Below, in pieces: positions 8,178 to 31,831 of a stretch of 37,900 bases of DNA. Within the stretch, counting starts at the first letter, position 1. Every line of letters starts with the position of its first letter. The position numbers and the translations under genes were made by a program. Origin of the DNA: Chloroflexota bacterium (lineage in GTDB: Bacteria; Chloroflexota; Dehalococcoidia; Bin125); the NCBI GenBank assembly GCA_028875225.1, contig JAPPFB010000008.1, positions 1 to 37,900 on the forward strand, written 5' to 3'. Under the pieces are notes generated by a model. It was not told where the DNA came from, searched no databases, and was given only the letters and a program-made list of their open reading frames with translations.

Positions 8178-9044
8178 ATGCCGTTGATGCCCTCCGCCGC
8201 CGACTTCGCCGCCAAGTGGCGAGAAAACGCCAAGCGCGAGAGCGCCTCCTCCCAGGAACACTTCATCGACCTCTGCCGACTGCTCAGCGTGCCGACGCCA
8301 GCCGAGGCCGATCCCTCCGGCGAGTCCTACACCTTCGAGGCCGGCGCCGAGCGGCTGAGCACCGGCGGCCAGGGTTGGGCCGACGTCTGGAAGCGCGGAC
8401 ACTTCGGCTGGGAATACAAGGGCGACCGTGCCGACCTCGCCGCCGCCTACCGTCAGCTGCTCGACTACCGCGAAGACCTCGAGAACCCGCCCACCCTTGT
8501 CGTTAGCGACATGGACCGCATCGAGGTCCATACCAACTTCACCAACACCCGACCCCGCGTCCACGAAATCACGCTGGACGACCTCGCCGCTGGCGGCGAA
8601 AGGACCGCCGAGGCCCTACGCATCCTGCGCGCGGTGATGGTCGAGTCGGAGGACTTGCGCCCGCGCCAGACGCCGGACGAAGTCACCCAGGCCGCCGCCT
8701 CGCGCTTCGCCGACCTTGCCCGCTCGATGCAGGATCGCGAAAACGAGCCCGAAATCGTCGCCCACTTCCTCAACCGCGTCCTTTTCTGCCTCTTCGTCGA
8801 GGACGTGAGGCTGCTTCCCGACAACCTGGTGACCGAGTTCATTGCCTCACGCTCAAACGATCCGGAGGCGTTTACCAGGGGATTGTGCGAGGTCTTCCAC
8901 AAGATGTCGGACCGGGAACCGGATGGATACTTCGGCAATCTGCAAATCGATTGGTTCAACGGCGGACTGTTCAACGACGACTCAACCCTCGATTTCACCC
9001 GCGACGAACTGCGCACCGTGGCCGAGGCCTCGAAACTTGATTGA
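8178..9044 (+). pseudogene. N-terminal fragment of MmeI-like (type IIL) restriction-modification enzyme
   Basis: The 288 residues match only the first two parts of MmeI-type fused restriction-methylation enzymes, which are usually about 900-1200 residues. The N-terminal nuclease region has YTFEAG, WADVWKRGHFGWEYK (the PD-(D/E)XK-like D...ExK), AYRQLLDYR, LENPPTLVVSDMDRIEVHTNF. The helical spacer has VAHFLNRVLFCLFVEDVRLLPDN. The family then continues LDWS.(V/I).P before the methyltransferase domain; here the frame reads LD-TGA-SQVGP, so the stop replaces the expected Trp codon TGG. Sequence beyond SQVGP no longer resembles the family, so the methyltransferase and target-recognition domains are lost. 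A lone nuclease part without methylase would be dangerous or inactive; I call it a decayed gene. Confidence 0.72.
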
Positions 9045-11955: not shown

Positions 11956-12169
11956 CGGACAGCGCCGCTAATCTACGCCCCAGAGCGCGCCTGGATCGGG
12001 CTTGGACGGCACCAACGACGCGGACCCTGGGAGGCATCGCCATGGCTGCTGCCAACGGTCGCCCTCCAGCCGGCCGCTTACTGAACGGACATCTATCGCA
12101 GGAACCGGCCGTTACGATTCTCAAGTGGGTTCAACCCGGAGAATTGTGCACGAATGTCGGTCGCTTGGG

Positions 12170-12625
12170 TTACCAAGGCTCGGTGTTCCGTGGATTCCGG
12201 CCATTCGCCTCGGCAAGTAGGAAGCGCCGGACTCGATCCATAACCAAGTCGAGAGATCGCAGCTCACACTCCCAGACCACCAGCGTCCGCCAGCCAAACT
12301 CGCGCAGCTCAGACAAGTGCCTATGGTCGCGCTCCCGGGTCCGCGTCAGCTTCGGCGTCCAGTACTCGACGTTCGACTTGGGCAAGCCAGCAATCGGGCA
12401 GACCGGGTCCGGGTGCCAATGCCAGAAGCAGCCGTGCACGAAGATCACCGCGCGGTGCCGTGCGAAGGTCAGGTCGGGCCTCCCTGGCAAGTCCTTCCGA
12501 TGCAGCCGAAAGCGGAATCCCATTCGGTGCGTCATCGACCGCACGGCCATTTCCGGGGTCATATCCTTGGAGCGGATTCGGGACATGCAGTAAGAGCGTT
12601 GCTCGGGGGTCAGATTGTCGGTCAT
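12170..12625 (-). CDS. vsr: Very short patch repair (Vsr) endonuclease
   Basis: This encodes 151 residues, close to the 156 of E. coli Vsr. Family motifs are RSYCMSRIRSKDMTPE at the N-terminus, GFRFRLHRKDLPGRPDLTF with the metal-binding Asp, VIFVHGCFWHWHPDP with the zinc/active-site Cys and His residues, and RTLVVWECELR near the end. Known Vsr enzymes nick beside T:G mismatches left by deamination of 5-methylcytosine and accompany cytosine methyltransferases. I chose ATG 12625, whose ATGA overlaps the upstream gene's stop. It is the last gene of the operon headed by the methyltransferase at 17223. In MORC-type systems Vsr-like nucleases may also act as effectors; that is an inference. Confidence 0.92.
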   Translation of the reverse strand: MTDNLTPEQRSYCMSRIRSKDMTPEMAVRSMTHRMGFRFRLHRKDLPGRPDLTFARHRAVIFVHGCFWHWHPDPVCPIAGLPKSNVEYWTPKLTRTRERDHRHLSELREFGWRTLVVWECELRSLDLVMDRVRRFLLAEANGRNPRNTEPW

Positions 12626-13383
12626 GCCGTCGCCGAAAGGGCGCGCTCCGCCTCGGCCCGAATCAGCGCATCGAGGGTGGGAGGTGGCACCGCATCGAGC
12701 AGGATCACTCCGCCGCGCCGGTTGAGGTTCTTCATCCATTCTCGGAACGGACCGCGCTGAAACAGGGCCCTATCTTCTGTCTCGAAGTCCTCCTTCATCA
12801 CCGCATAGATCGCCTTCAGAACATCGAGATTCATCGACACGCTGGGCCGCTCGATCAGCGCGGATCTGACGTCCTGGCGGTAGAGCAGGATGTCCAGAAA
12901 CCGGCGCGGTTCGGCCGGATCCGCCTTGTGCGCGATTGAGCCCAGCCACCAGAGGCGCGACAGGCCGTTGTCCCGAATGAGCGATCGGTTCCCCCTCACG
13001 AAGAAGTGGTTGAGAACCCGCTCTATCGCGCCGGGCGAATCCGGGTCATAGCCGCGGAGCCAGCGGGCGGCGACGTAGGAGCGGCACTCGTTGTGGCAGA
13101 GATACGTCCAGACTCGTTGGTCTGAGGCTTGGTAGGGACTCAACTGCGAGAAGGATTCGAACAGGGCCAGCGCGTTCGCCGCGTCAGTCGACGCAGGCCG
13201 ATGCTCGTTGATGCTCAACAGATCCTGCCACTGCGGCAACTCCAGCTTCGTATCTCTTCTCGGGGTCTTGGCAGCCAGGATCGGCTCGGGGGCGCTCAGG
13301 TCGAAGTACCACCCAACGTTGGTCTGAACGAGCTGCCGCAACTCCGAAACAGCCTCCAGGGTGTAGTACTGGAGCGGGGCCAC
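12622..13383 (-). CDS. Protein of unknown function in MORC/Dcm/Vsr operon (DUF6339-like?)
   Basis: This encodes 253 residues. The start is GTG 13383, because AGGAGG lies 7 bases before it; a GTG at 13389 overlapping the upstream stop (GTGA) is too close to that site. Features include YYTLEAVSELRQLVQTNVGWY near the N-terminus, WTYLCHNECRSYVAARWL, NHFFVRGNRSLIRDNGLSRLWWLG, and a helical C-terminus. The N-terminal pattern and length recall DUF6339, but I could not verify this. There is no signal peptide or membrane segment. Its stop overlaps the vsr start by four bases (ATGA), implying coupled translation and a shared role. It could be a specificity or effector subunit. Confidence 0.8.
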   Translation of the reverse strand: MAPLQYYTLEAVSELRQLVQTNVGWYFDLSAPEPILAAKTPRRDTKLELPQWQDLLSINEHRPASTDAANALALFESFSQLSPYQASDQRVWTYLCHNECRSYVAARWLRGYDPDSPGAIERVLNHFFVRGNRSLIRDNGLSRLWWLGSIAHKADPAEPRRFLDILLYRQDVRSALIERPSVSMNLDVLKAIYAVMKEDFETEDRALFQRGPFREWMKNLNRRGGVILLDAVPPPTLDALIRAEAERALSATA

Positions 13384-13385
13384 GG

Positions 13386-14246
13386 TCACTCCTCCTGGTG
13401 CTGCAGAAGCGGAAGCCTGCCGAACGGCTGCCTGAGTATCTTCTGCGCGTCCAGCAAGCGATCCGAGTCGCGCTCTCCCAACGGGCGGCATTCCGCGCGC
13501 GCCAGTGCGGCGGTAAGTGCCTCGAACCAGCGGGCGCCCGACAGATCGTCCAGTTCTGCCCGGTCCGCCTCCGTCAACAGCCAGGCTAGGGCAGGCAGAT
13601 AGACTCCGTTCAGGATGTAAGCCGCGGTTTGACTCGCGGCCGCGCGGCTTCGCGCTTCTTGGAATCGTTCCAGTTCGGCGGGATGAAGCAGGATGGTCAC
13701 AAGGTCAGGATCCCGCTGCCAATCGCATCTCCAGGCACCCAGCGCCATATTCTCGTCGGCTGCAACCTGGAACACCGATGAGATCGGCGTTTCGTCCGCG
13801 GCCACGACCCAATAGCTCACCGACAGGTCAATGGCCAATACCGAACCCGGCTCGATGGTGAAGGAGCGGTTCGCGTAGTCGTCGTGCCAGTTCGACGCCT
13901 TGAAGTTGTCGATCCGGCGGTGCGCTACGACGAACGGCGTGATCTCTACTCGGCCCGCCAGTCGTCCGTCCTCCGCGTACCACTCGATGCGCGGCTCGGC
14001 GCATTCGAGGTACTTGCGGAAGTGGGTTGTCGAACAACTAACCAACAGGCCGTATCTCGCGTGGTCCTTTGCGATCAGATCGGTGAGATTTCTGTCGCCC
14101 AGGTAGAAGTCCGCCTCCAAATGCAGCTGCGTCGTGTTTTCGATCTTGTTCAGCTCCGGGGCGCACTGGAACTCGCTGCGCTTATAGTCGCTGCTGCCGT
14201 GCCTGAGGACCGGCCACGGCCAGGACTTCGATCTGACGTACTTCAC
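13386..14246 (-). CDS. Protein of unknown function in MORC/Dcm/Vsr operon
   Basis: This encodes 286 residues from GTG 14246, with GGAGGCGGAG directly upstream; the GTG shares one base with the TAG of the ATPase gene. It begins MKYVRSKSWPWPVLRHGSSD, then LHLEADFYLGDRNLTDLIAKDHARYGLLVSC, ITPFVVAHRRIDNF and LHPAELERFQEARS. The N-terminal half looks beta-rich and the C-terminal half helical. No nuclease motif is certain. The family was not recognised. Its tight placement between the ATPase and the next gene makes it very likely a component of the same complex. Confidence 0.8.
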   Translation of the reverse strand: MKYVRSKSWPWPVLRHGSSDYKRSEFQCAPELNKIENTTQLHLEADFYLGDRNLTDLIAKDHARYGLLVSCSTTHFRKYLECAEPRIEWYAEDGRLAGRVEITPFVVAHRRIDNFKASNWHDDYANRSFTIEPGSVLAIDLSVSYWVVAADETPISSVFQVAADENMALGAWRCDWQRDPDLVTILLHPAELERFQEARSRAAASQTAAYILNGVYLPALAWLLTEADRAELDDLSGARWFEALTAALARAECRPLGERDSDRLLDAQKILRQPFGRLPLLQHQEE

Positions 14247-16213
14247 TACTCCGCCTCCACGACCGCGCCCACCTGCCAGGCGGCGTCCGCGAGCGGCTCT
14301 TGGCCGGCAATCGTCAGCTCGTAGCGCACGCGCTCGATCATCTCGAATCGGCTCAGCGAGACTTGTTGGCCCTGTCCGTCAAGGACCGCGATATCTGTCC
14401 GCGCTATCGCGGCAGCGTCTCCGGCCTCGTCAATGGTCAGCGCGGCAACGGCCGTCTCAGGCGCAGTGAATGCGACGCGGCTTCGCAGTTCGTCAGTCGG
14501 ATCGTGCACGACTCGAACGTCTCCAAGTTCAAGAATCCGGCGGCCTTTTGAGCCTCCCCGGCTTCCCGCGCCGCCGCTGTTCTCGCCCTCGCCCCCGCCG
14601 CCTCCTGCACCACCTCCGCCGTTGCCCTCGCCGCCTCCGCCGCCAGAGCCGCCCTTGCCGGAGCCGTCCCCGCCCTCGCCGTCTACCGGCTCATCGTCTT
14701 CGAGCGTCACGCTTGGAGTCACGCGCAAGCGGGGCGGCTTCTTCTTCACGGCGCCGACTTGGCCGAACGCCGACTCCGCACCGTCTTTGGCAGCAGGGCC
14801 GTCGAGGGGACCCGGGTGATCGTCAAAGAGATACTCAGCGAGTTCATCGACGACATCGGTGACCTCCACCGCCAGCGGCGCGGCGTGGATTCTCAGCTGA
14901 GTTCGAAGAAAGTCCGCCAGCCGATCCAGTGCGCGCCGGCCCCGATCGCGCTCTTCCTCGCGCAGCCGCTCATACTGGAACTGGTCATGGGCTGGATTCT
15001 CCATCTCCCGCAGCAGCTTGTTCGCATGGTCGTCGTCGATCACGCAGACGGCGGCGTACTCGCGCAAGCGCCGAAACCGATGTTTCGCCTGCAGGTCTGT
15101 GACGATCATGCCGGTGCCGCGAATCAAAGCCACTCGGCTGGGCAGAATCTCGTTGGGGAAATCGTCCTCCGTGCCGATCCACAGTTTCACCCGCCCCAGG
15201 TCCTTGTCGGGAGGGTCCATGACGGCGGTCGGCGGCCCGCCGTTGACCAAGCGCCAGTAGAGTTGTGCGCGATCGATCGCGTCGTCGTCATCCTCGCTCT
15301 TGGTCTCGTTCGTCAACTGGCCGAAGAGCGCCGGCAGTGCGGCCTTGCGGACATCCCACAGCGCCTCACCGCCGCCGCTCTCATCGGGCTCCAGCAAGAT
15401 CTCCAAGTCGCCTTGTTGAATGCCGTAGAAGAAGCTCTCGACGACGCTGCGCGCAACGGCTCGCTGCCACCGCTCGCCGTGTTGGTCTGGATTGAACCCG
15501 ACGATCCACACGGCCGTGCCCGGTTCCGCCTTCCCGCCGGGCGTGCGACGGAAGACCTTGGGGATGTCGCCTCCTTCCAGCGCCTCGCAGCCGTCGGTGA
15601 GGCCGAAGAAACCCGTGCCGCTGGTTGTCTCGGGTCCTCTGCCGAAATCGTGCTTGTGCGAGACGAGCACCGCTTTGCCCTGGAACCTCTCCGTCAGGCT
15701 CCCTTCGTCCTCGAACGCGGACCAGTAGCAGACGGTCCGCAGCGGCGAGACGGTGAACGGGGCCGCCTTGCCGACGCCGAACGACCCGCCCGCGGACTCG
15801 CTGCGCTTGACGCTCGCTCCAGCCCACTTGACCAGGCCGCGCCATAAGGTGCCTTCAAGCCCGGTGGTATTGGTGTCGATCACCCCAAGGAGCTGGAGTC
15901 TCTCAGCGTTCAGTGCGTCCCGTGCAACGCGCAGCGTGGCGAGTGCTTTGGGATCACTGCCCCACTCGCTTATGCAGCTGTCAAGGTGCTCCGCGAGTTC
16001 TTCCCCCGCAATCTCGTTTGGCTCAATCTCCCGCAGCTCGAAGGTGATGTGGACGGGCCGCTCCGGGTCGGCGCGCGCATCGAGAGAATTCTGAATGATC
16101 TCGCGAGCCAGACTAGACAGCGGCGCGCCGTCGAATGTGACGATTCCAGCGTCATTGATCCCGGTCTCCACGCCGCCTCCGGTGGGCGGGAAGTTCCAGC
16201 CGATCTTGTTCAT
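14246..16213 (-). CDS. GHKL ATPase, MORC/MutL-like, of a restriction-modification system
   Basis: This encodes 655 residues from ATG 16213, whose ATGA overlaps the methyltransferase stop; an upstream in-frame start at 16243 would extend into that gene and is rejected. The GHKL nucleotide-binding motifs are visible: the N box AREIIQNSLDAR (Glu38, Asn42, Asp45), a loop LLGVIDTNTTGL, and the G box GGSFGVGKAAPF. A middle domain follows (LYWRLVNGG, VALIRGTGMIVT), then a long glycine/glutamate-rich linker (positions ~14580-14690) and a beta-rich C-terminal domain (VAFTAPETAVAALTIDEAG). Such ATPases beside cytosine methyltransferases and Vsr were described as the prokaryotic relatives of eukaryotic MORC proteins. 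ATP-driven clamping or DNA loading is likely; the trigger is unknown. Confidence 0.85.
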   Translation of the reverse strand: MNKIGWNFPPTGGGVETGINDAGIVTFDGAPLSSLAREIIQNSLDARADPERPVHITFELREIEPNEIAGEELAEHLDSCISEWGSDPKALATLRVARDALNAERLQLLGVIDTNTTGLEGTLWRGLVKWAGASVKRSESAGGSFGVGKAAPFTVSPLRTVCYWSAFEDEGSLTERFQGKAVLVSHKHDFGRGPETTSGTGFFGLTDGCEALEGGDIPKVFRRTPGGKAEPGTAVWIVGFNPDQHGERWQRAVARSVVESFFYGIQQGDLEILLEPDESGGGEALWDVRKAALPALFGQLTNETKSEDDDDAIDRAQLYWRLVNGGPPTAVMDPPDKDLGRVKLWIGTEDDFPNEILPSRVALIRGTGMIVTDLQAKHRFRRLREYAAVCVIDDDHANKLLREMENPAHDQFQYERLREEERDRGRRALDRLADFLRTQLRIHAAPLAVEVTDVVDELAEYLFDDHPGPLDGPAAKDGAESAFGQVGAVKKKPPRLRVTPSVTLEDDEPVDGEGGDGSGKGGSGGGGGEGNGGGGAGGGGGEGENSGGAGSRGGSKGRRILELGDVRVVHDPTDELRSRVAFTAPETAVAALTIDEAGDAAAIARTDIAVLDGQGQQVSLSRFEMIERVRYELTIAGQEPLADAAWQVGAVVEAE

Positions 16214-17223
16214 TCCAGACCCTCCGCAAGCGCTGCCAAACACTGTTCGCCCGCCAGCCGCGCCAACTCGGGGCAGGCGGCGTTCCCAAGAAGGCGGTAC
16301 CGCTCTGCGGTCGGCACCAGGTTGGGAAACAGTTCGGGCTCAGCGGCGTCGAAGCCCTGCAAATGCGCGACCTCGCCCACGCGCAACCGGCGTATTCCCC
16401 ATTCGTCGAGCAGGAACGGGACGTTGTGACCGCCGATACCCATGTTTGCGGTCAGGGTCGGGCAGAGTGCGCCCGGCTTCTCTCGGACGTAGCTGCGCCG
16501 GACCTGGTAGAGGTTGTCCTGCGACTGACCACTGGCCATCTCCGCCTCGATCATCTTTCGGTATGTGTTGCCGGCGGCGAGGTAGTCAGCGTCCTCAGAC
16601 CGAGTCCTCCGATCCACGATGTCATGAATGGTGCGCGTCCCAATACGGGATTCCGGGAGGGCGGGCGGCGTGAACGGGTTGTACGTGAAGTGCGTCCGGG
16701 ACGCAGCGACGAGGAACAGCCGCTCGCGGTCCTGCGGAATGCCGGTCCACTTCCTGACGTTGGCGACCCAGCAGGACTCGGCGCGGAACCAATAGCCCGC
16801 GCGACGCAATGATCGGCAGACGGCGTCGAACCACGCGCCTTCGTCGCCGTGGAGCAAGTGGGGGACATTCTCCAGGATCAAGAGCTTGGGGCGATTCCAT
16901 TCGGACCACTCTCCGAGCAGCCGGGGGATCTCGAAGAACAGGCGCCCCCGCTCGTCCTCGAAGCCGCCGCGGTTTCCCGCTTGGCTGAAACTCTGACACG
17001 GGAATCCGCCGGCCAGAACGTCGACTGCGGGCAGAGACGAAGCGCTCAACCCGCAGATGTCCCGCTCGTAGAAGTCCACATCGGGGAACCGGTGGCGGAA
17101 TGCCGCCGCCGCGTGGGGATCGTTGTCCGTAGCCCAGCGCAGAACGAAGCCCGCGTCAGTCAGGCCGGAGGCGAATCCGCCCATGCCGCTGAATAGGCAT
17201 CCAAGTGTCGGCGGACGGTCCAT
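16210..17223 (-). CDS. dcm: DNA (cytosine-5-)-methyltransferase
   Basis: This encodes 337 residues with the m5C methyltransferase motifs in order: motif I LFSGMGGFASG (SAM binding), motif II near TDNDPHA, motif IV GGFPCQSFSQAG with catalytic Cys76, motif VI ILENVPHLL, motif VIII IPQDRERLFLVA, and C-terminal motifs IX/X (RRLRVGEVAHLQGF, RLLGNA). The target-recognition region between VIII and IX includes the SRIGTRTIHDIVDRR and LYQVRRSYVREKPGALCPTL segments; the recognised sequence cannot be read off. It is complete and heads the operon. No ribosome-binding site precedes the ATG, but a -10-like box sits six bases before it. Confidence 0.95.
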   Translation of the reverse strand: MDRPPTLGCLFSGMGGFASGLTDAGFVLRWATDNDPHAAAAFRHRFPDVDFYERDICGLSASSLPAVDVLAGGFPCQSFSQAGNRGGFEDERGRLFFEIPRLLGEWSEWNRPKLLILENVPHLLHGDEGAWFDAVCRSLRRAGYWFRAESCWVANVRKWTGIPQDRERLFLVAASRTHFTYNPFTPPALPESRIGTRTIHDIVDRRTRSEDADYLAAGNTYRKMIEAEMASGQSQDNLYQVRRSYVREKPGALCPTLTANMGIGGHNVPFLLDEWGIRRLRVGEVAHLQGFDAAEPELFPNLVPTAERYRLLGNAACPELARLAGEQCLAALAEGLE

Positions 17224-17229
17224 TCGCGG

Positions 17230-17235
17230 ATTCTA
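17230..17235 (-). promoter_or_regulatory. Putative -10 box for leaderless dcm transcript (TAGAAT)
   Basis: On the minus strand TAGAAT (5 of 6 matches to the -10 consensus) lies six bases before the ATG of the methyltransferase. With no Shine-Dalgarno sequence in the 25 bases upstream, transcription would start about at the ATG. No good -35 box is seen. Confidence 0.45.
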
Positions 17236-17744
17236 TCGGCAGCCCCTCGATTTCTTGGAGAGAGTGCTCTCGGCGAACCGGTTCGGTGCTCCTGCTCTTC
17301 CCCGGTCACTGGAGGACGCTCTCACCACCCGGCGCAAGATGACCCTTCTCCCTTCGATTGGCGCAATCGCCGGCTGGTCAGGGCGGTAGGTGCGAACGGT
17401 CTCTTGTTCCGCCGATCGGAGCGGTTGCAAATCTCGGAGAACCTCCGTGACCCAGACGCCCACAGGTTGGAGCCCTACGTCCGGGACCAGCTGCGGGCGT
17501 AGCGGAGGCGACACCGAAGGGCCGCGCCAGTGGCTCCGGGCACACCGGTCCGTTTACACAGACAACGCAACTCGTCGGCGCATCGTAGTCGCTAAGTCCA
17601 TCCGATCCGGCCGCGCCGGACGAACGCAAGCTGACTCTTGGGGGCAAGTCGGTCGGGAAGTTTGCGGCGCAATGGCTGCAAGCTCGATACGACAGAGCAA
17701 AACGGTAGCAGAAGGCCCTCGCCTTTCGGGTAACGGCAGTTGCG
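17236..17744. other. Divergent intergenic region without a supported gene
   Basis: This lies between the minus-strand methyltransferase operon and the plus-strand NYN operon. Frames on both strands (for example 17233-17514 minus) have poor, arginine/serine-rich composition and no recognised motif. It may hold control sites for both operons. Confidence 0.4.
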
Positions 17745-17772
17745 TTGACACGAATGTGGAACTTGCTAATCT
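17745..17772 (+). promoter_or_regulatory. Sigma-70-type promoter with consensus -35
   Basis: A perfect TTGACA (17745-17750) is followed after 16 bases by TAATCT (17767-17772), preceded by TGC as in extended -10 promoters. A start near 17779 would give a leader of about 100 bases that meets the terminator-like hairpin at 17844. Confidence 0.55.
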
Positions 17773-17843
17773 GGCCTCATAGAACCCGCGGACGGTAAGC
17801 TCCTGCGCGATTTCAGGATGAACCCGACCGCCGCTTCGAACCC

Positions 17844-17876
17844 CGAGGGCCGCTTCAGTGGCCCTCGAATTCTTTT
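17844..17876 (+). terminator. Intrinsic terminator (sRNA end or attenuator)
   Basis: Two 10-base arms (CGAGGGCCGC and GTGGCCCTCG) pair with one G-T wobble around a TTCA loop, followed directly by AATTCTTTT. This is the best Rho-independent terminator in the window. It lies between the promoter at 17745 and the NYN gene, and it covers a possible GTG start at 17858, which argues for ATG 17903 as the true start. Confidence 0.75.
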
Positions 17877-17902
17877 CGGATTCCGAGGAGATTCGCAGCC
17901 CA

Positions 17903-18571
17903 ATGACGCCCATCTCCGGCGGACCGCAATCGGCTGCGAGTCCCGCAGGCAGTGCGCCGGCTCGCAGCGACCGAGTACGGATCTTCATTGACCAAGCGAA
18001 CCTCGATCTGACGATGAGGTCTCAGGCCAGGAGTCGTGGCGTAGCCTGGAACGGCTTCGACTGGACCAGGTTGATCGGCTGGCTCGTGCGTCAAACGGAG
18101 TCTGTGTGCCAGTTGAGCGCCGCCGTTCATGAGGGAACCAGGGTCTACGCCTCCTTTGATCAGAGCGATCCCGCCCACGCCAATCGACGAAAATGGCTTC
18201 AGTGGTTGGATCGTCAGCCTGGGATACAGGTCGTCACGAGCCAAATGCGTCCGCGGCCATCGCCGACATGCCAGCAATGCCATCGGAGGATCGACGACTG
18301 TCCCCACTGTGGCGCCAGGCTCAGGTTGCGTGTCGAGAAGGGCGTCGATACGGCAATCGTGACGGACATGGTCGCCCTTGCCTGGCAAGGCGCCTACGAC
18401 ATCGCGGTCCTCGCATCGTCCGACAGCGATTTCATTCCGGCCGTGCAACTGCTGGACCAGCGAGGGCTCAAGGTGGTTCAAGCTGGCTTTCCTCCGGTAG
18501 GCGATGAGCTTCGTCGGGCATGTTGGGGGCAGATCGATGTCTTCAAGGGGCATGCGGACCTAGCGCGCTGA
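17903..18571 (+). CDS. NYN-domain protein (LabA/PIN-like putative RNase) with zinc ribbon
   Basis: This encodes 222 residues from ATG 17903, with GAGGAG 12 bases upstream. The NYN (PIN-like) fold motifs are RIFIDQANLDL (first acidic residue, Asp30), EKGVDTAIVTDMV, and LASSDSDFIPAVQLLDQRG. Between them an inserted CQQC...CPHC zinc ribbon interrupts the domain, an arrangement known in some LabA/DUF88 proteins. Members are metal-dependent nucleases or RNA-binding proteins. The next gene starts 33 bases later on the same strand and encodes an Mrr-type nuclease, so the two likely form one defence or quality-control unit. The first ~20 residues are disordered and not needed for the fold. Confidence 0.85.
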   Translation: MTPISGGPQSAASPAGSAPARSDRVRIFIDQANLDLTMRSQARSRGVAWNGFDWTRLIGWLVRQTESVCQLSAAVHEGTRVYASFDQSDPAHANRRKWLQWLDRQPGIQVVTSQMRPRPSPTCQQCHRRIDDCPHCGARLRLRVEKGVDTAIVTDMVALAWQGAYDIAVLASSDSDFIPAVQLLDQRGLKVVQAGFPPVGDELRRACWGQIDVFKGHADLAR

Positions 18572-18604
18572 CCATTCGGGTCCGTTCGTCGAGGCCATAA
18601 CGAA

Positions 18605-20065
18605 ATGAAGGCAGAGTTCCGGAATTGGCGCGAGTACCAGGAAGCTGTGGCAGCGGTGTTCCGCGAACTCGACTGCCAGGTTGAGGTGGACAAGAAGGTG
18701 CACGGCACTCGTGGCACGCACGATGTCGATGTCTACGTGACTTTCCCGAAGTTCGGACAAGAGTGCCAGTGGCTCATCGAATGCAAGCTCTGGAACAGGG
18801 GCGTGGACAAATCCGCCGTCCTAAAGCTGCAGTCCATTGTCCAGAATGTCGGAGCGGATCGAGGAGTGATCTTCTCGGAAAGCGGCTTTCAGTCCGGCGC
18901 ACGCGAGGCCGCACACAGCTCAAACATTCTTCTACAAGATTCGCTTGGGGACTTTAGGCGGACGGCGAAACTGCACTTGCATCGGACTCCGCTGATTACC
19001 CTTGCATCCCCGGAGCCAGATGTCCCTCCGGTCTATGGCATTCCGGGCGGATATCAACCACACCACTTGCTCAAGCATGATGGGCGATTGTTCGTCAGCA
19101 ACTGGGGAACTCCTCAGAAGGGCAACATTGCGATCGTCGATCCTTTGGCGAGGACGCTCGACGGGATCATCGAGCTAGACAAGTACGAGGTTCGAACAGC
19201 GAGCGAGCGACGACCGCGCGTGGTTCAGCATTTGCCCGGCAATATCGCTTGCGCGAACGGCAAGCTATTCGTCGGACAGGTCTTCTCCGATTCCGTTCTG
19301 GTCATCGACATTGAGTCGCAGGCAATAGTCAAGCGAATATCGATCCCGGGCGGCGGCGAAGGAGCGGTCGCCGCATCGCCCGACGAGGGAACGGTCTACT
19401 TCGCCAGCAACAAGTTCCCGTCCTTCTTCGTCATTGACAGCGTGGAGTACGACTATTCCGAAGTCCCCTATCCCGAGGGCGCGCGAGGTTGCCTCTGCGT
19501 GCTCGCACATCCATCTAAGCCGCTCCTCTACATCGGAATCCAGAGAGGTGGCAGTTCACCTCCGATCGCTCCAACAGGAGGGGGCGCGTGTCTCGCCGTC
19601 TACGACCTCTCCGAGCGCCGATACCTGGCCAATCTGAATCTCGCCGAGGACAATGGCGGACGCGGCGATGACTCGATTCCGTTCTGCCTGAGCTTCGACG
19701 AGTCCGACCACAGCATCTATGTCGGCATGATGCAGTCGCTGCGCGGACTCCTGCGGCTGGACGAGCTAGGGCGTGAGGTCCTCGATGAAATCCGATTTGA
19801 GTCGAACGAGTGTAATCGACATTTCCCCTGGGTAGATCCGTTGTCGCAGGCCCTCTATCGCGACAGGCTCATCTCCGTGAACCGCAACAACTGTGAACTC
19901 GTCGCCATCGACAAGAAGACGGGGCGAGTCGAGCTCTCGTCTTATCTTGGAGACGCCCCAAATGGCCCGCACTCTGTTGCGATCTTCGGCGAAACGGCGG
20001 TCATTAGCTACCCGGAGCGTGGCGGACTCATCTTCCACAACCTTGCGAGCACAGCGTCTGACTAG
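18605..20065 (+). CDS. Mrr-type nuclease fused to a beta-propeller
   Basis: This encodes 486 residues. Residues 1-~110 form a PD-(D/E)XK nuclease of the Mrr_cat type: THDVDVYV (Asp40/Asp42), WLIECKLW (Glu59, Lys61), then VLKLQSIVQNVGADRGVIFSESGF. Residues ~150-480 contain repeated blade-like segments of a YncE-type propeller: GYQPHHLLKHDGRLFVSNWG, NIAIVDPLARTL, NGKLFVGQVFSDSVLVIDIE, GAVAASPDEGTVYFAS, FCLSFDESDHSIYVGM, LISVNRNNCELVAIDKKTG. There is no signal peptide, so it acts in the cytoplasm. Mrr nucleases cut modified or foreign DNA; the propeller would be a sensor or scaffold. I do not know a characterised protein of this architecture. It probably shares an mRNA with the NYN gene. Confidence 0.85.
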   Translation: MKAEFRNWREYQEAVAAVFRELDCQVEVDKKVHGTRGTHDVDVYVTFPKFGQECQWLIECKLWNRGVDKSAVLKLQSIVQNVGADRGVIFSESGFQSGAREAAHSSNILLQDSLGDFRRTAKLHLHRTPLITLASPEPDVPPVYGIPGGYQPHHLLKHDGRLFVSNWGTPQKGNIAIVDPLARTLDGIIELDKYEVRTASERRPRVVQHLPGNIACANGKLFVGQVFSDSVLVIDIESQAIVKRISIPGGGEGAVAASPDEGTVYFASNKFPSFFVIDSVEYDYSEVPYPEGARGCLCVLAHPSKPLLYIGIQRGGSSPPIAPTGGGACLAVYDLSERRYLANLNLAEDNGGRGDDSIPFCLSFDESDHSIYVGMMQSLRGLLRLDELGREVLDEIRFESNECNRHFPWVDPLSQALYRDRLISVNRNNCELVAIDKKTGRVELSSYLGDAPNGPHSVAIFGETAVISYPERGGLIFHNLASTASD

Positions 20066-20078
20066 ATGACCTGCCGAC

Positions 20079-20213
20079 ATGATTGACGCACCATCGTGGG
20101 CGCCGATCTACAGTGGAACGGACCAAGAGAAAGTTCGCAGTTCGGTATCGCTAGGCCCACCAAACTGGACAAAATCGAGAACCTTCGTGTTGCGGTTTAG
20201 ATTGGATGTCTAG
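20079..20213 (+). pseudogene. 44-codon remnant matching the 3' end of the gene at 23132
   Basis: A frame from ATG 20079 to TAG ends LGPPNWTKSRT..LRFRLDV. The gene ending at 23644 ends IGPTKLDKSRT..IRFRLEL, and the DNA around both ends is similar (AAATCGAG core). So 20140-20213 is probably the surviving tail of a duplicated copy. The first half of the small frame has no counterpart seen. Confidence 0.45.
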
Positions 20214-20669
20214 TTCCTCCGCCAGTCTCTTGGTCGCAGGGGGACATTCAATCGCCTATTCGACCAACCAGTTCGTGGTCCACCGACAGGAAAAACGGTT
20301 CGCTAAGGCCCCTAGCCTTGTCGACGGCGACAGTGGCGTGGTATCACCCGACGCCGCCAGATGAACTTGTAACGTCTCCTAGCGACTTGCGCCCACGCGC
20401 TCACTGGTTCGGAGCGCCTTGCTGTTGCGCCACTCAAGGAAACTGCGCGGCCTCGACGATCGAGGGTGCAACGCGGGCGCATCAGGTGCTGTCACCGTAG
20501 ATCGTTGGCTGCGGTGGCGCGACGCCGCCAGATTGTCGATACACTCTTACATGCCGTGAGGCTTCGCCGTCATCAATGCACTAGCAGTCTCTTCACCGAA
20601 CCCGCGGACCTCCCTCTGATCCACCAGAATGGGAGCAGTGCTCGGTCCGGGAGGGAATGAGGTGTTCAG
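20214..20669. other. Intergenic region before the two-TM protein
   Basis: No gene is supported. A possible -10 box (TACACT, 20540-20545) precedes the next gene. The gene's ribosome-binding site GAGG ends seven bases before ATG 20670. Confidence 0.35.
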
Positions 20670-22169
20670 ATGTGGACGTTGATGTTCACCTTGATCGGCG
20701 TGATCGGAGCGATCTTTGGCTTTCTGGTTCTCGTGATCAGTCATTGGCCATTCTCGCGAAGCGGGACGGAGACGGAAGAGCCGCTCCAACAGGTCCAATC
20801 CCGGCGTAGCAGCTTGACGTTTGGTTTCGCCGTAGTTCTCTTCACTGCGAGCTCGATTACGTTTGTCGTTTCCTTGGTCGCCTTCGACTTCCTCGATGAC
20901 ATTGAGCAGCTAGCTAAGCAGCTCGGAGTAAGGGAGTGTGTGCATAACGGGGAGAGCGACTCACCGGGCAATCCGTTGGTCACAGTCCCGCCCGATCATC
21001 GCTGCAAGGTCGAGGGTATCGGCACGTTCGAAGTCGACGATTCGGGAAGGGCGACTGTGGCCCCATATGTGCTAAGTCCTCGAGGTAGCGGCAAGAGCGA
21101 GGATATCGATGCGCAGATCAAGCTGGATCCTGAACCAGCCGGGCACCCGCACGGCTTTCACTCACGCGTCGCGAAAGACGGCATGAGCTGGGAGATCTGG
21201 CTCGCCGGCGAGTGGCAGTTGACGGGCGACAACGGAGCGTGCGGCAAGGATCTACATGTGTTCCCCGGACAGTATTGCATCTGGAATGGAGCTCAGTTCA
21301 GGGTGTACGCCGTTGACGCGCTCATTCCCTCCGACATTGGGTCAGGGTTGGACAAGGGCCGCCCGTACCTGAACGGCTACGCGGTGCTGATGAAACCTGG
21401 TCTCAGGATCAACGAGCAGATCGACGACCGGAACGTGAGGTGCGAAGTCAACAACGGCAAGTTTGCGGCCAGTCGATCCGAGAGCGATGGTGTCACTCCT
21501 GGAGACGCCTGGGTCATTCAAGAGGCAAGCCCGACTAGATTGGGCGACGCAGTGACCAGGGGAGCGGAATGTGAGCGACCGCCGGAAACCTCTAATTCCG
21601 CCGGTGACTCCGCTCCCGGCAATGCGTCTCAAGCGCGCGATGCTTCACCGCCAATGTGCAGTAGGGATCTGACACTAACCGTCGGTGGACTATGCGCGGT
21701 TCCAGGAGCAGGAACGTTCGAGGTGACTACCGGTGGCGCAACCTGGCCGTCTTCAGCCGGATTTCAACGTCGAGGATGGCTTCAGGCAGATGTTGTGACA
21801 GCAGGGAGGCATATCACATTGCAGGCGCTTGAGGCTGGCTCAACGAATACGTGGACAGTTGTGGCGGCCGGCGAGTGGCAGGACTTGGGCCAATGTTCGT
21901 CCGTGGTCGGCGAGGAGATACGGCCCGGCCAATTCTGTTTCTGGGGCAGCCAGCCGTTTCGCGTCTATGCAACAGGGGAGGTCGTCAACGAGCGGCACCG
22001 CGGGGACGACTTTTCCTCAGGTTTCGCAGAAGTCGAACGACCTAACGGCAAGAACGAATCAGATGCACATCGAATTGTGCTTGATGACACTGACCAGGAC
22101 AGGACCTTTAGCGCGCACCGCTCACCAGTTGAAGGATCAACAAGTTGGATCGTCGACCAGGCAGACTAG
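20670..22169 (+). CDS. Two-TM membrane protein with duplicated Cys-containing domain
   Basis: This encodes 499 residues. Two hydrophobic helices lie at about 1-25 and 50-75, then a long soluble part. That part contains one domain twice: C.V.G.GTFEV near the start, (E/T)W..(L/V)(A)AGEWQ, then PGQ(Y/F)C(I/F)W...FRVYA. Copy 1 spans about residues 111-215 and copy 2 about 345-460. Conserved cysteines at matching places suggest disulphides, so this part is probably outside the cell. The family was not recognised. It follows the Mrr/NYN genes after 600 bases with its own likely start region, so a functional link is uncertain. No enzyme motif is seen. Confidence 0.75.
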   Translation: MWTLMFTLIGVIGAIFGFLVLVISHWPFSRSGTETEEPLQQVQSRRSSLTFGFAVVLFTASSITFVVSLVAFDFLDDIEQLAKQLGVRECVHNGESDSPGNPLVTVPPDHRCKVEGIGTFEVDDSGRATVAPYVLSPRGSGKSEDIDAQIKLDPEPAGHPHGFHSRVAKDGMSWEIWLAGEWQLTGDNGACGKDLHVFPGQYCIWNGAQFRVYAVDALIPSDIGSGLDKGRPYLNGYAVLMKPGLRINEQIDDRNVRCEVNNGKFAASRSESDGVTPGDAWVIQEASPTRLGDAVTRGAECERPPETSNSAGDSAPGNASQARDASPPMCSRDLTLTVGGLCAVPGAGTFEVTTGGATWPSSAGFQRRGWLQADVVTAGRHITLQALEAGSTNTWTVVAAGEWQDLGQCSSVVGEEIRPGQFCFWGSQPFRVYATGEVVNERHRGDDFSSGFAEVERPNGKNESDAHRIVLDDTDQDRTFSAHRSPVEGSTSWIVDQAD

Positions 22170-27512: not shown

Positions 27513-29504
27513 ATGTTGGACTGGCGATCTGCGCGGGTCGTTGCGGCCTTGGTTGGGATGCTCGGCGTCATTGCTGCGCTCGGGGCCTGGACGACGAGCG
27601 CGCAGTCGCGGCTGAGCCTCACGCTCGACGCGCCTGACGTGTGTGAGTTCGAGCTGCCCGCGATCGGACCTGAAGATTCAATTGCGGTTGGTTCAGTCCA
27701 GGTCAGTTGGTCAATCAGCGGCGGGGCGGCACCGTACGAACTCGTGTTCAATGGCCAACCCCTAACGGGCGCAAACGGCCACGTCAACGTGCCCTGCGGT
27801 CCGACGGCGATCGATGTGCGTTCGAACAGCCGCACGCCGGGGATAGTCACGCTGCAGGCGATGGTCAGCGACGCCAACGGCGACCTCGCTGTGGCGCTGC
27901 ACGACCTGCACATCGTTCAGGTCATTCACGAACGCGGCACCTTTCCCTTCGGTCTGAAAGGTCCCGCCACGTACCGGGTGCACGGACATCTGCTGACGAT
28001 ACCTGCCGGCCATGGCATGGAGCTGGGCCGCTATATCTCCGCCGGCTGCGGGGCGCCGGGGCCGGATTGCGCCGACCGTTTCGAGTTGTACGCGCCCTAC
28101 GGTACGATCGTCCTCTATCGCTGGAGCGGAGCGGAGCACTCGAGAGTCCTTGACGGCTCGAGCGGTCGAGAGCCTGTCGAGATCTATGCCGACGATCAGA
28201 ACGCGGTCGTTCCGCGGCACCAGCAGTGGGCGAGCGACAGCTTCGACGAGTTGATGTCCAGCATTGGCGACCCACCGCGGTTGCGTCCTGATGTGCGGTC
28301 TGGCGGTCGCGCGGGTGGGGGCCTGCGGCTGAGCCTGACCGCACCCGCGATCTGCGAGCACGATCCCGGAGTGGCGCCGGTCCGCTGGAGCGTGCGCGGC
28401 GGACGGGGCCCCTACGAGGTCACGATTGGCGGGGACCGCTACCTGGGCCGCACGGGTGAGACTCCGATCCTCTGCTCCGCGCTCGGAGAGCCTCCCGGCC
28501 ATTCCGGCATCCAACGGATCCAGGCCACGGTCGTCGACGCGCGCGGCAACGTTGCGGTCGCCAGCGCCGATCAGTATGTGATCCGGCGGCTGTGGACCTG
28601 GACCTGGACCTTGCGCGCCGGTGAGACGTATCGCTACGGCAACCAGCTGTTCACGGTGCCCGATGGCGTGACGCTCGAGACCCGCCGCGGCACCGAGCAC
28701 TGCACCTCAGATCCTGACGACGAAGAGCAATCCTGCGAACCCAGCATGGTCCTGGTGCTGTCGGATGGGGATGCGGAGGCGACGCTGGAGATCGGTGAGG
28801 TCAGCGGTGGGGTGCTCAGCCGTTCAGCCTCAGCCGAGCCGCCGCCGACATTGCGGCTGAAGCAGCGGGCACTCGTTGCATCACTGGGTCAAGCGCCAAA
28901 CCTGCCTGCCGACTTCCTCGATCGCTCGGAGTCTCTCAGTCTGCAGGTCTTCACCACCTCGCCCGTCTGCACCGCGGGATGGGTTGACCTCTACCTCAAT
29001 GTCAAGGGTGGGCGATGGTGGCCGCTGCGGTTCACCATCGATGGCGAGCCGCGGCAGGTCTATGGCACGGGAAGCATGAAAAAATCGGCGCGTTGTCACT
29101 CCACCAACGACGACCAGCGACTGTCGCTTGAGGCTCGTGAGTCCGGGCCTGCTCCACAGCGCGTGACTCAAGAACTGCATCTGTCCGCGCCGCCCGCCGT
29201 AAACCGCCGCGCTCTCTATGTCCAATGGACGCTGCCGGAAGACCGTTCCTGCGTGATCGGTGAATCGTTCGAGCTGTCCTGGAGCACGTCGGTCCTGGCC
29301 TCCTACGACGAGGGCAGCCCAACGGCAGTTCGCTTCAACCTCGACGATCGCGTGTTCGGCCCGGTCGGCTCGGTGGCGATCCGCTGTCCGTCGACGCCGG
29401 GCTACCACCTGCTCGAAATGGGAGTCAGCGTCGAATCGAATCCGGACCTTGACGAGTACCGATACGCCGCGATCCGGGCGCAGCTCGCCCGTCCGCGGAG
29501 GTAG
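27513..29504 (+). CDS. Secreted repeat protein, SGG-PY / TYRV-LLTIP family (first of pair)
   Basis: This encodes 663 residues with a signal peptide (VVAALVGMLGVIAALGAW, cleavage near TSA-QS). It holds the family module twice. Module part A is Ig-like: WSISGGAAPYELVFNGQ with Cys before and after, and WSVRGGRGPYEVTIGGD, each closing with V.DA.GN.AVA. Part B is ATYRVHGHLLTIPAGHGMELG with a C...C pair, and ETYRYGNQLFTVPDGVTLE. Part C is a short helix such as ALVASLGQAPNLPADF. A third, degenerate A domain (VKGGRWWPLRFTIDGE) and a terminal domain follow. Function is unknown; the make-up suggests surface binding. Six bases after its stop the next family member starts, with the ribosome-binding site overlapping this stop. 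Confidence 0.8.
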   Translation: MLDWRSARVVAALVGMLGVIAALGAWTTSAQSRLSLTLDAPDVCEFELPAIGPEDSIAVGSVQVSWSISGGAAPYELVFNGQPLTGANGHVNVPCGPTAIDVRSNSRTPGIVTLQAMVSDANGDLAVALHDLHIVQVIHERGTFPFGLKGPATYRVHGHLLTIPAGHGMELGRYISAGCGAPGPDCADRFELYAPYGTIVLYRWSGAEHSRVLDGSSGREPVEIYADDQNAVVPRHQQWASDSFDELMSSIGDPPRLRPDVRSGGRAGGGLRLSLTAPAICEHDPGVAPVRWSVRGGRGPYEVTIGGDRYLGRTGETPILCSALGEPPGHSGIQRIQATVVDARGNVAVASADQYVIRRLWTWTWTLRAGETYRYGNQLFTVPDGVTLETRRGTEHCTSDPDDEEQSCEPSMVLVLSDGDAEATLEIGEVSGGVLSRSASAEPPPTLRLKQRALVASLGQAPNLPADFLDRSESLSLQVFTTSPVCTAGWVDLYLNVKGGRWWPLRFTIDGEPRQVYGTGSMKKSARCHSTNDDQRLSLEARESGPAPQRVTQELHLSAPPAVNRRALYVQWTLPEDRSCVIGESFELSWSTSVLASYDEGSPTAVRFNLDDRVFGPVGSVAIRCPSTPGYHLLEMGVSVESNPDLDEYRYAAIRAQLARPRR

Positions 29505-29509
29505 CGGCG

Positions 29510-31831
29510 ATGTCACGGCGTCGTCGCGGCGTCGCGCTCCTCGCCAGCCTGCTCCTGATGGCCGGGGCCGCGGCGAGCGCGTGGGCGGCGATCGATAGCG
29601 CGCAAGGGCTCAAGATCGTGCTCAGCGTCCCCCACACCTGCGACACCGAAGGTGACGAACGCGACGAAGAGCTCACATTGAGCGTCGAGTGGTCGGTTGT
29701 TGGTGGGGAAGCCCCCTACGAGGTGTTCGTTGACGGCTCGCGCGTTGGCCAGGCTCACGGCGTCACGGAGCTGCTCTGCGGAGTCTGGGCGGGACGCGAT
29801 GTGGACTCCGGCCTGTTCGCTGTCCAGGCGCATGTCCGCGATGCGACGGGAGCGACCGCCGGCGCGCTTTCCTACGTGAACGCGGTGCGTTCGATTCGCG
29901 CAGACAGTTATGGCGGACCCGGCGACACCGATCTGCAGGCCGGGCTGACCTACCGCGTGCACGGCATCTTGATCACCGTTCCCGAGGCCTTCGACCTGCA
30001 TCTCGGCGACTACACCTCAGCCGACTGCCGCGACCTCGATGCGCCCTGCGACGACCGGTTCCAGCTCTTCACTGGCAGCTGGAACAGTCGAGGCTCCAGC
30101 ATCTGGATCCGACGCTGGCCAGCCGAGGAGTTCAGTCGTGAAGTCTCCGCCTACGGTGCTCTCGATGCCGATGCAGTGAGCGCGGCATTCGATCAACTGG
30201 TCGCCTCGATCAATCAGCCTGCGTCTGACCTGGTCCCCCCGGGCGTCGCTGGCGGAGGTACGAACGCGCTCTTGCTGCGGATGATCGCGCCGGCGATCTG
30301 CGAGGAGACCGGCAGCTACTGGTCGCCGTCGCAGAGCGTTGTCGCCTGGGAGGTCAGCGGCGGCAGCGCGCCGTATCGGATCGTCATCGATGGGCAGATG
30401 TTCGGGGCCGCGTCGGGAGACCTGCACGTGCAATGCGGGCGCCTGACTCGCGGCGTCAGCGACTCCGGCCTGCACAGCGTGCACGGGATCGCGATCGACG
30501 CGAACGGCAGTGTCGCGTCCGGCGTCGTTCACACCTATGGGATCAAGAACGTTGTCGCCGCGGAACTGCGCGGCGGCGAGACCTATCGGGTGTCAGGTCA
30601 ACTGCTGACGATACCAGCAGGCGTCGTCGCGGAAGTGGGCGGGTATGAGCACTCCAGCTGCGATCCGCCCGAGGGCGACGACCGTCACGATCCGTACTAC
30701 TGCGAGGATGCGTTTGGGCTGTCGGTGCGGTCGGACGGAGTCTCCGCCTCCGTCTGGTTTGGCGCGGAGAGCGGCCGCGCCTACGGGGAGGAACCACGAG
30801 CAACGACGCCCGCAGTCGGCTCGGATCACCCGATCCACACGCAGCTCCGAGCGCTTGTGGCGTCGGTCGGCCAACCGCCAACGCTTCCTGCCGATCTCGC
30901 CGATCAGCTCGCGCCACTGCGCATCACGGCCGACGTTGACCCGATCGGTTGCCAGGTCGGCGGCTACAACATCCAAACAGCCCGAGAACGGAACGAAAAC
31001 TGGGGCAGGTTACACGACGGGGAATACACCACGGCGAACCCGATAGGCGGCCCTGCGGTCAATCTCAACTGGTCAGTGACCGGCGGTTACTGGACGCCAC
31101 TGACCATCACAGTCAACGGCCGCGACCCGTCCGCTCATCGTCTCGTGCTGAACTGCCCGCAACGAGATGGGACGCACGAGATCAGATTGACCGCCTCGGA
31201 CCGCAGCGATCCACCGCAGTCGGCTGAGTTGACGCTGAAGTACGAGTCTCTCGCGAGATCGGTTGAGGAACAACTGCCGTTCAGTGCCGCGGCTCTCCTG
31301 AGCAGCCATTGCCGACCGGGCGAGTCCGTGCTCATCGGCTGGAGGGCCTACAGCGAGCATGGACCAGTAGTCATCTCGATCGATGGCGTCGACGGTCAGT
31401 ATGATCCAGGCGGTGCAGCGATCGTCCGCTGTCAGCAGTCGATCGGGACTAAGACCGTCATGCTCCGCGCGACGGATCAGGCGCAACCTCCGCACCGATC
31501 GACGGCAGCCGTACGAATCAACGTCACCGATTCGCCGCCGCAGCGTGTTGGAATGCAGGTAACCGCAAACGCATCGCCGCGCGCAACCTGTACCACCGGC
31601 GAGCGTGTGCAAATTGTCTGGCGCGCGACTGGCGGCGTACCGCCGTATCAGGTCAGGGTGCCCGGAGACGAATCGGCCAGAGTGGACGGCTCCTTGATCG
31701 AGCTCGATTGCCCTCCCGGCTCTGACAACCCATATGTCACGATCGACATCACCGACTCCAATGTCAAACCGAACACCGTGCGGTTGCATGTGAGTCTCAA
31801 CGTGACATCCGACACGGTGGACGAGCCCTAG
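29510..31831 (+). CDS. Secreted repeat protein, SGG-PY / TYRV-LLTIP family (second of pair)
   Basis: This encodes 773 residues with a signal peptide (GVALLASLLLMAGAAASAWA). GGAGGT at 29497 sits in the end of the previous gene, 7 bases before ATG 29510, so both share an mRNA. It carries two full modules: WSVVGGEAPYEVFVDGS then LTYRVHGILITVPEAFDLHLG with FDQLVASINQP, and WEVSGGSAPYRIVIDGQ then ETYRVSGQLLTIPAGVVAEVG with ALVASVGQPPTLPADL. Three further A-type domains follow: WSVTGGYWTPLTITVNG, WRAYSEHGPVVISIDG and WRATGGVPPYQVRV. Each A domain has a Cys shortly before and one after. No catalytic motif is seen. It is probably an exported adhesin-like partner of the preceding protein. Confidence 0.8.
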   Translation: MSRRRRGVALLASLLLMAGAAASAWAAIDSAQGLKIVLSVPHTCDTEGDERDEELTLSVEWSVVGGEAPYEVFVDGSRVGQAHGVTELLCGVWAGRDVDSGLFAVQAHVRDATGATAGALSYVNAVRSIRADSYGGPGDTDLQAGLTYRVHGILITVPEAFDLHLGDYTSADCRDLDAPCDDRFQLFTGSWNSRGSSIWIRRWPAEEFSREVSAYGALDADAVSAAFDQLVASINQPASDLVPPGVAGGGTNALLLRMIAPAICEETGSYWSPSQSVVAWEVSGGSAPYRIVIDGQMFGAASGDLHVQCGRLTRGVSDSGLHSVHGIAIDANGSVASGVVHTYGIKNVVAAELRGGETYRVSGQLLTIPAGVVAEVGGYEHSSCDPPEGDDRHDPYYCEDAFGLSVRSDGVSASVWFGAESGRAYGEEPRATTPAVGSDHPIHTQLRALVASVGQPPTLPADLADQLAPLRITADVDPIGCQVGGYNIQTARERNENWGRLHDGEYTTANPIGGPAVNLNWSVTGGYWTPLTITVNGRDPSAHRLVLNCPQRDGTHEIRLTASDRSDPPQSAELTLKYESLARSVEEQLPFSAAALLSSHCRPGESVLIGWRAYSEHGPVVISIDGVDGQYDPGGAAIVRCQQSIGTKTVMLRATDQAQPPHRSTAAVRINVTDSPPQRVGMQVTANASPRATCTTGERVQIVWRATGGVPPYQVRVPGDESARVDGSLIELDCPPGSDNPYVTIDITDSNVKPNTVRLHVSLNVTSDTVDEP

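Follow-up and report, generated by a model that had tools for sequence, protein, structure and literature searches.

In the sponge-symbiont Chloroflexota bacterium analyzed here (genome 3.2 Mb, 29 contigs), the first 37,900 nucleotides of contig JAPPFB010000008.1, below called the window, hold a gene that joins an Mrr-type nuclease domain to a beta-propeller, and this gene follows one for an NYN-domain protein. The arrangement raises the question of what a propeller does on a nuclease, and whether the two genes work together, since the preliminary description of the locus had proposed a defence unit made of two nucleases. Both open reading frames were found at the positions given there and on the same (plus) strand, NYN at 17903..18571 and the 486-aa Mrr-propeller protein at 18605..20065, with 33 bases between the end of the former (18571) and the next ATG (18605). 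Our reading is that 18605-20065 encodes a defence nuclease acting as a single protein, with the propeller as its sensing or targeting part, and we give this a probability of about 0.6.

The nuclease domain spans residues 1-130 (18605..18994, plus strand). It matched the Pfam family Mrr_cat (PF04471, 2.6e-13) above the gathering score, with 50.6 bits against a cut-off of 21; a profile search of the PDB by sequence alone gave a spurious lectin as the sole match for this domain. Among the aligned Mrr homologues E13, D42, E59 and K61 were invariant, and the PD-(D/E)XK residues are thus conserved. The catalytic residues named in the preliminary description stand for D42, E59 and K61, but not for D40, which is replaced by lysine in two of the homologues, and this argues for D42 rather than D40 as the likely metal ligand. 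When the domain was folded alone in AlphaFold, from five Mrr sequences of which two came from IMG/VR, the model had a pLDDT of 84 and a restriction-endonuclease-like fold. Its closest solved structure was AF1548 (Z 15.5), and further matches were Can2 (Z 12.5), AspBHI (Z 10.5) and MspJI (Z 9.3), along with Can1 and Card1. In the full-length AlphaFold model, built from three sequences, the propeller was confident, while confidence was low for the Mrr part and for the way the domains are arranged; therefore gating of the nuclease by the propeller cannot be read from that model.

Residues 143-480 (19031..20044, plus strand) were predicted by AlphaFold to form a propeller of four-stranded blades with pLDDT values mostly of 80-94. 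A strand count in the model gave seven blades, and the seventh is probably closed by the strand directly after the Mrr domain. At the sequence level a weak TIGR02276 beta_rpt_yvtn repeat was detected, and at the structural level the top match was E. coli YncE, aligned over 290 residues at 17% identity with a VIA-align Z of 32.4; the matching structures include its DNA complex (3vh0). The YncE-type propeller that had been suspected in the C-terminal part is thus predicted to be there, and its coupling to an intact Mrr nuclease is supported as well; the propeller shows no sign of export. YncE has the same seven-bladed fold but is itself periplasmic and lacks a nuclease domain.

Conservation differed between the two faces of the propeller. 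Residues identical in all four sequences made up 38 of 109 positions in the top-face loops as compared to 8 of 49 on the bottom face (p 0.009 by shuffling whole loops), a comparison that uses four sequences and takes its blade and loop limits from one AlphaFold model. Among the top-face loops are GGGEG (249-253), RDD (353-356), HFPWVDPLSQ (406-415) and NGP (453-455). That one face is conserved across phyla suggests that the top face binds a conserved ligand and not a fast-changing phage protein.

The relatives of the nuclease domain give a hint of how such a face may be used. In the type III CRISPR ancillary nucleases Can2, Can1 and Card1 (Z 8.8-12.6) the same nuclease fold is joined to an activating sensor, and in the modification-dependent endonucleases MspJI and AspBHI (Z 9.2-10.5) an Mrr-like nuclease fold is combined with a separate reading domain. 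Because several of the closest nuclease structures come with a domain for reading a signal or a DNA mark, we take the propeller as the sensing or targeting part. The kind of domain differs: the sensor of Can2, Can1 and Card1 is a CARF domain that binds cyclic oligoadenylate, and the reading domain of MspJI and AspBHI is SRA-like, whereas the window protein has a propeller instead. The propeller might read DNA directly, as could be suggested by the DNA complex of YncE, or it might read an infection signal. In such a scheme the loop-rich top face would bind a conserved ligand that appears during infection, possibly a DNA feature, a nucleic-acid end, a conserved protein or a metabolite, and binding would position or release the nuclease on the invading DNA. 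The Mrr-type PD-(D/E)XK domain would then cut this DNA, with D42, E59 and K61 binding metal and carrying out catalysis.

The same structural matches can be read in another way, as those of a type IV-like restriction enzyme whose propeller reads DNA (a modification, single strands or ends) and which cuts where it is bound, with no infection signal involved. Both the likeness of the Mrr domain to MspJI and AspBHI, whose separate domain recognizes modified cytosine, and the top propeller match to a protein solved with DNA point in this direction, as does a Dcm-type methyltransferase in the host, 1.4 kb away. However, the Mrr-propeller protein has no known modification-reading domain, and a 5mC cutter beside an active Dcm would attack the chromosome of its host if the two shared their sequence contexts. 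We consider this explanation unlikely.

Full-length homologues of the Mrr-propeller protein were found in another species of the same genus (67% identity), in Ca. Abyssobacteria (49%) and on 18 enterobacterial plasmids (47%), and a contig of the Chloroflexota metagenome bin RHO2_bin_60 carried a copy identical to the window locus. Identity was about equal in the two domains, 47-73% for Mrr and 47-65% for the propeller, and the conservation argument is carried by no more than four independent sequences of full length. Members of the family are rare: a full-length match was present in 2 of 400 Chloroflexota genomes, and of 5426 complete E. coli genomes 31 had full or nearly full copies, mostly chromosomal. 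Members are found in defence islands of E. coli and also on hospital plasmids. On plasmids the propeller family was fused to Mrr in 18 of 18 records and never occurred otherwise. Proteins of ~230-280 aa with different C-termini carry the Mrr domain too, which suggests that the propeller is one among several C-terminal additions to a shared nuclease module. In IMG/VR no relatives were found for the whole protein, for its E. coli homologue, for the propeller by itself or for the NYN protein, and the Mrr domain alone found two Mrr relatives with other C-termini; the phage genomes searched gave no match. One Chloroflexota locus with an Mrr-only gene (L006) has a gene for a PD-lambda-3B-like protein (TIGR02391) nearby on the opposite strand.

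The preliminary description had regarded the fusion as unusual. Vassallo et al. 2022 describe a protein, validated as an anti-phage defence in E. coli, that begins with an Mrr domain and has a seven-bladed propeller in its C-terminal part (PMC9519451). On that account the architecture is already known, and the comparison with the window protein is one of described architecture. These authors left open what the propeller does (PMC9519451). Except for a weak match of the Mrr part to PDC-S02, PADLOC models did not match the Mrr-propeller family, and as far as the available description goes the Vassallo protein may therefore be a separate sequence family. Some names for it were tried. Accession order in PADLOC led to PDLC03978, 03980 and 03981, which are PD-Lambda-2_A, and to PDLC03973, which is UzuA, so a model of the Vassallo protein was not located in this way. 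PD-lambda-1 is SNIPE, a GIY-YIG nuclease, and was discarded as a name. PD-lambda-3 is an unlikely name because a PD-(D/E)XK-like motif (VFPDVIV...LEFKK) sits in its gene A. This fits a review that lists PD-lambda-3 among the systems with a PD-(D/E)XK nuclease (PMC10952713); the system has been described as abortive (PMC13190303).

A bolder reading is that the proteins form a distinct defence-nuclease family, independent of the described Mrr-propeller protein and spread horizontally between Chloroflexota, Abyssobacteria and enterobacterial plasmids, in which the top face of the YncE-like propeller would sense a conserved infection-linked ligand and switch on the Mrr domain. We put this forward tentatively, as somewhat doubtful when taken as a whole. 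What is new here is the spread of the family over phyla, the conservation of one propeller face and the position of an E. coli member, which begins 23 bases after PD-lambda-3. Since the conserved face has been mapped and four divergent homologues are at hand, the question of the propeller's role is opened to a test by mutation.

The E. coli member also directs attention to a gene that immediately follows PD-lambda-3, in E. coli as well as on plasmids of Enterobacteriaceae, and that is annotated just as 'restriction endonuclease' and apparently uncharacterised. It lies at 11995-13428 of locus L012 and at 11396-12829 of L023, in both 23 bases downstream of PD-lambda-3B, and PADLOC PD-Lambda-3 models matched both genes upstream of it. 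The E. coli homologue belongs to the locus of WP_040100796.1. In Enterobacteriaceae PD-lambda-3A and PD-lambda-3B come first, then the Mrr-propeller gene, a gene for a 1040-aa protein weakly similar to STAND NTPases, and genes for a metallophosphoesterase and a HAD hydrolase, with Hachiman after them; on one plasmid BREX lies on the other side. With such an operon-like row the Mrr-propeller protein may need partners in Enterobacteriaceae, and this order is also what speaks for taking it more generally as an accessory of a larger operon, working with PD-lambda-3A/B-like proteins and the NTPase-like 1040-aa protein. PD-lambda-3 itself consists of a PD-(D/E)XK-like A and an adjacent HEPN-like B (TIGR02391). 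Homologues of A and B, of the 1040-aa protein and of the metallophosphoesterase were absent from the window and from L003, L004 and L049, and at L021 PD-lambda-3A/B occur with no Mrr-propeller gene, which makes a general accessory role improbable. At L004 and L049 the Mrr-propeller gene stands alone, with no obvious operon partner on the same strand, in line with our preferred reading of a nuclease that acts by itself.

Defence genes were near the Mrr-propeller gene in all four lineages examined. On the opposite (minus) strand of the window, at 12622-17223, lie the Dcm-type cytosine methyltransferase and the complete PADLOC candidate PDC-M33A/B/C, assigned by PADLOC and Pfam, with DUF6339 (Pfam) as the last gene. 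At 8178-9044 an MmeI-like enzyme of type IIG is represented by an N-terminal fragment. The island of the same genus, L049, holds a full-length relative of this enzyme (983 aa, 81% identity to the fragment), an Eco57I-like methylase and a Replic_Relax protein with 57% identity to its window counterpart. At L004 the neighbours of the Mrr-propeller gene are GmrSD and an RtcR-CARF regulator.

Do the NYN and Mrr-propeller proteins belong together? The NYN protein was confirmed, and so was the zinc ribbon that the preliminary description had seen inserted in it. Its match to Pfam NYN (6.1e-16) exceeds the gathering score, and residues 38-214 match PADLOC HEC-09 (6e-14), a name for which our literature search found no paper. 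The ribbon, CxxC-x6-CxxC at 18269..18310 (plus strand), precedes the conserved acidic motifs VDT and SDSD, and its cysteines (138, 141, 148 and 151, numbered from the GTG) were kept in all aligned homologues, both from Chloroflexota and from plasmids. For the start the ATG at 17903 is to be preferred over the upstream GTG at 17858, because the GTG falls within a terminator-like hairpin (17844..17867, plus strand) and the homologues begin near the ATG. Counted from this ATG, D30, D174 and D176 are the putative catalytic residues of the NYN protein. The hairpin, directly before the NYN start, is weak on its own, as 4 terminator-like sites were found against 2.4 expected by shuffling.

If the NYN protein were an RNase and joined the Mrr-propeller DNase in one defence system, the shared strand and the 33-base gap would fit. 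In line with this, no promoter-like site was found at 17200-20800, a range that includes the gap between the genes; both genes have a low GC3 (70%) as compared to ~92% in the A2M-like gene, and the HEC-09 match would also fit. However, the linkage is not conserved. No NYN gene lies beside the Mrr-propeller gene in the same-genus (67%) orthologue, in the Abyssobacteria one or in any examined from Enterobacteriaceae, and none of the close relatives of the NYN gene, whether from Chloroflexota or from small plasmids, had an Mrr-propeller neighbour. Those from other Chloroflexota (44-52% identity over the aligned part) stand alone among unrelated genes. The genome with the 67% orthologue has no close NYN relative, its weak NYN match lying elsewhere in the genome, and the two same-genus islands have in common the type IIG gene, the Replic_Relax gene and the Mrr-propeller gene but not NYN. 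Further, NYN domains are common, with four in the host genome alone. The preliminary description had named two findings that would speak against its two-nuclease unit, a C-terminal part that does not fold as a propeller and genes that never co-occur elsewhere, and within the genomes searched the second was observed. Joint action is therefore very improbable, and the NYN gene is probably independent cargo, a chance neighbour and not a functional partner.

Other NYN relatives, at 32-39% identity, are found on plasmids of 6-12 kb. Zinc-ribbon NYN proteins on such plasmids from Alpha- and Gammaproteobacteria (L050-L054) are sometimes beside relaxase or replication genes, and a role in plasmid maintenance or RNA control is possible for them.

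The Mrr-propeller gene and its neighbours have a GC3 of 65-70%, lower than the ~92% of the A2M-like gene that lies at the edge of the window, which is consistent with a recent arrival of this gene and its neighbours. Two adjoining large open reading frames (663 and 773 aa) at 27513-31831 are without match in Pfam, NCBIfam or PADLOC. Downstream of the Mrr-propeller gene, at 20670-22169, a 499-aa protein without Pfam match seems to have a membrane anchor and is internally duplicated, the two halves being 28% identical.
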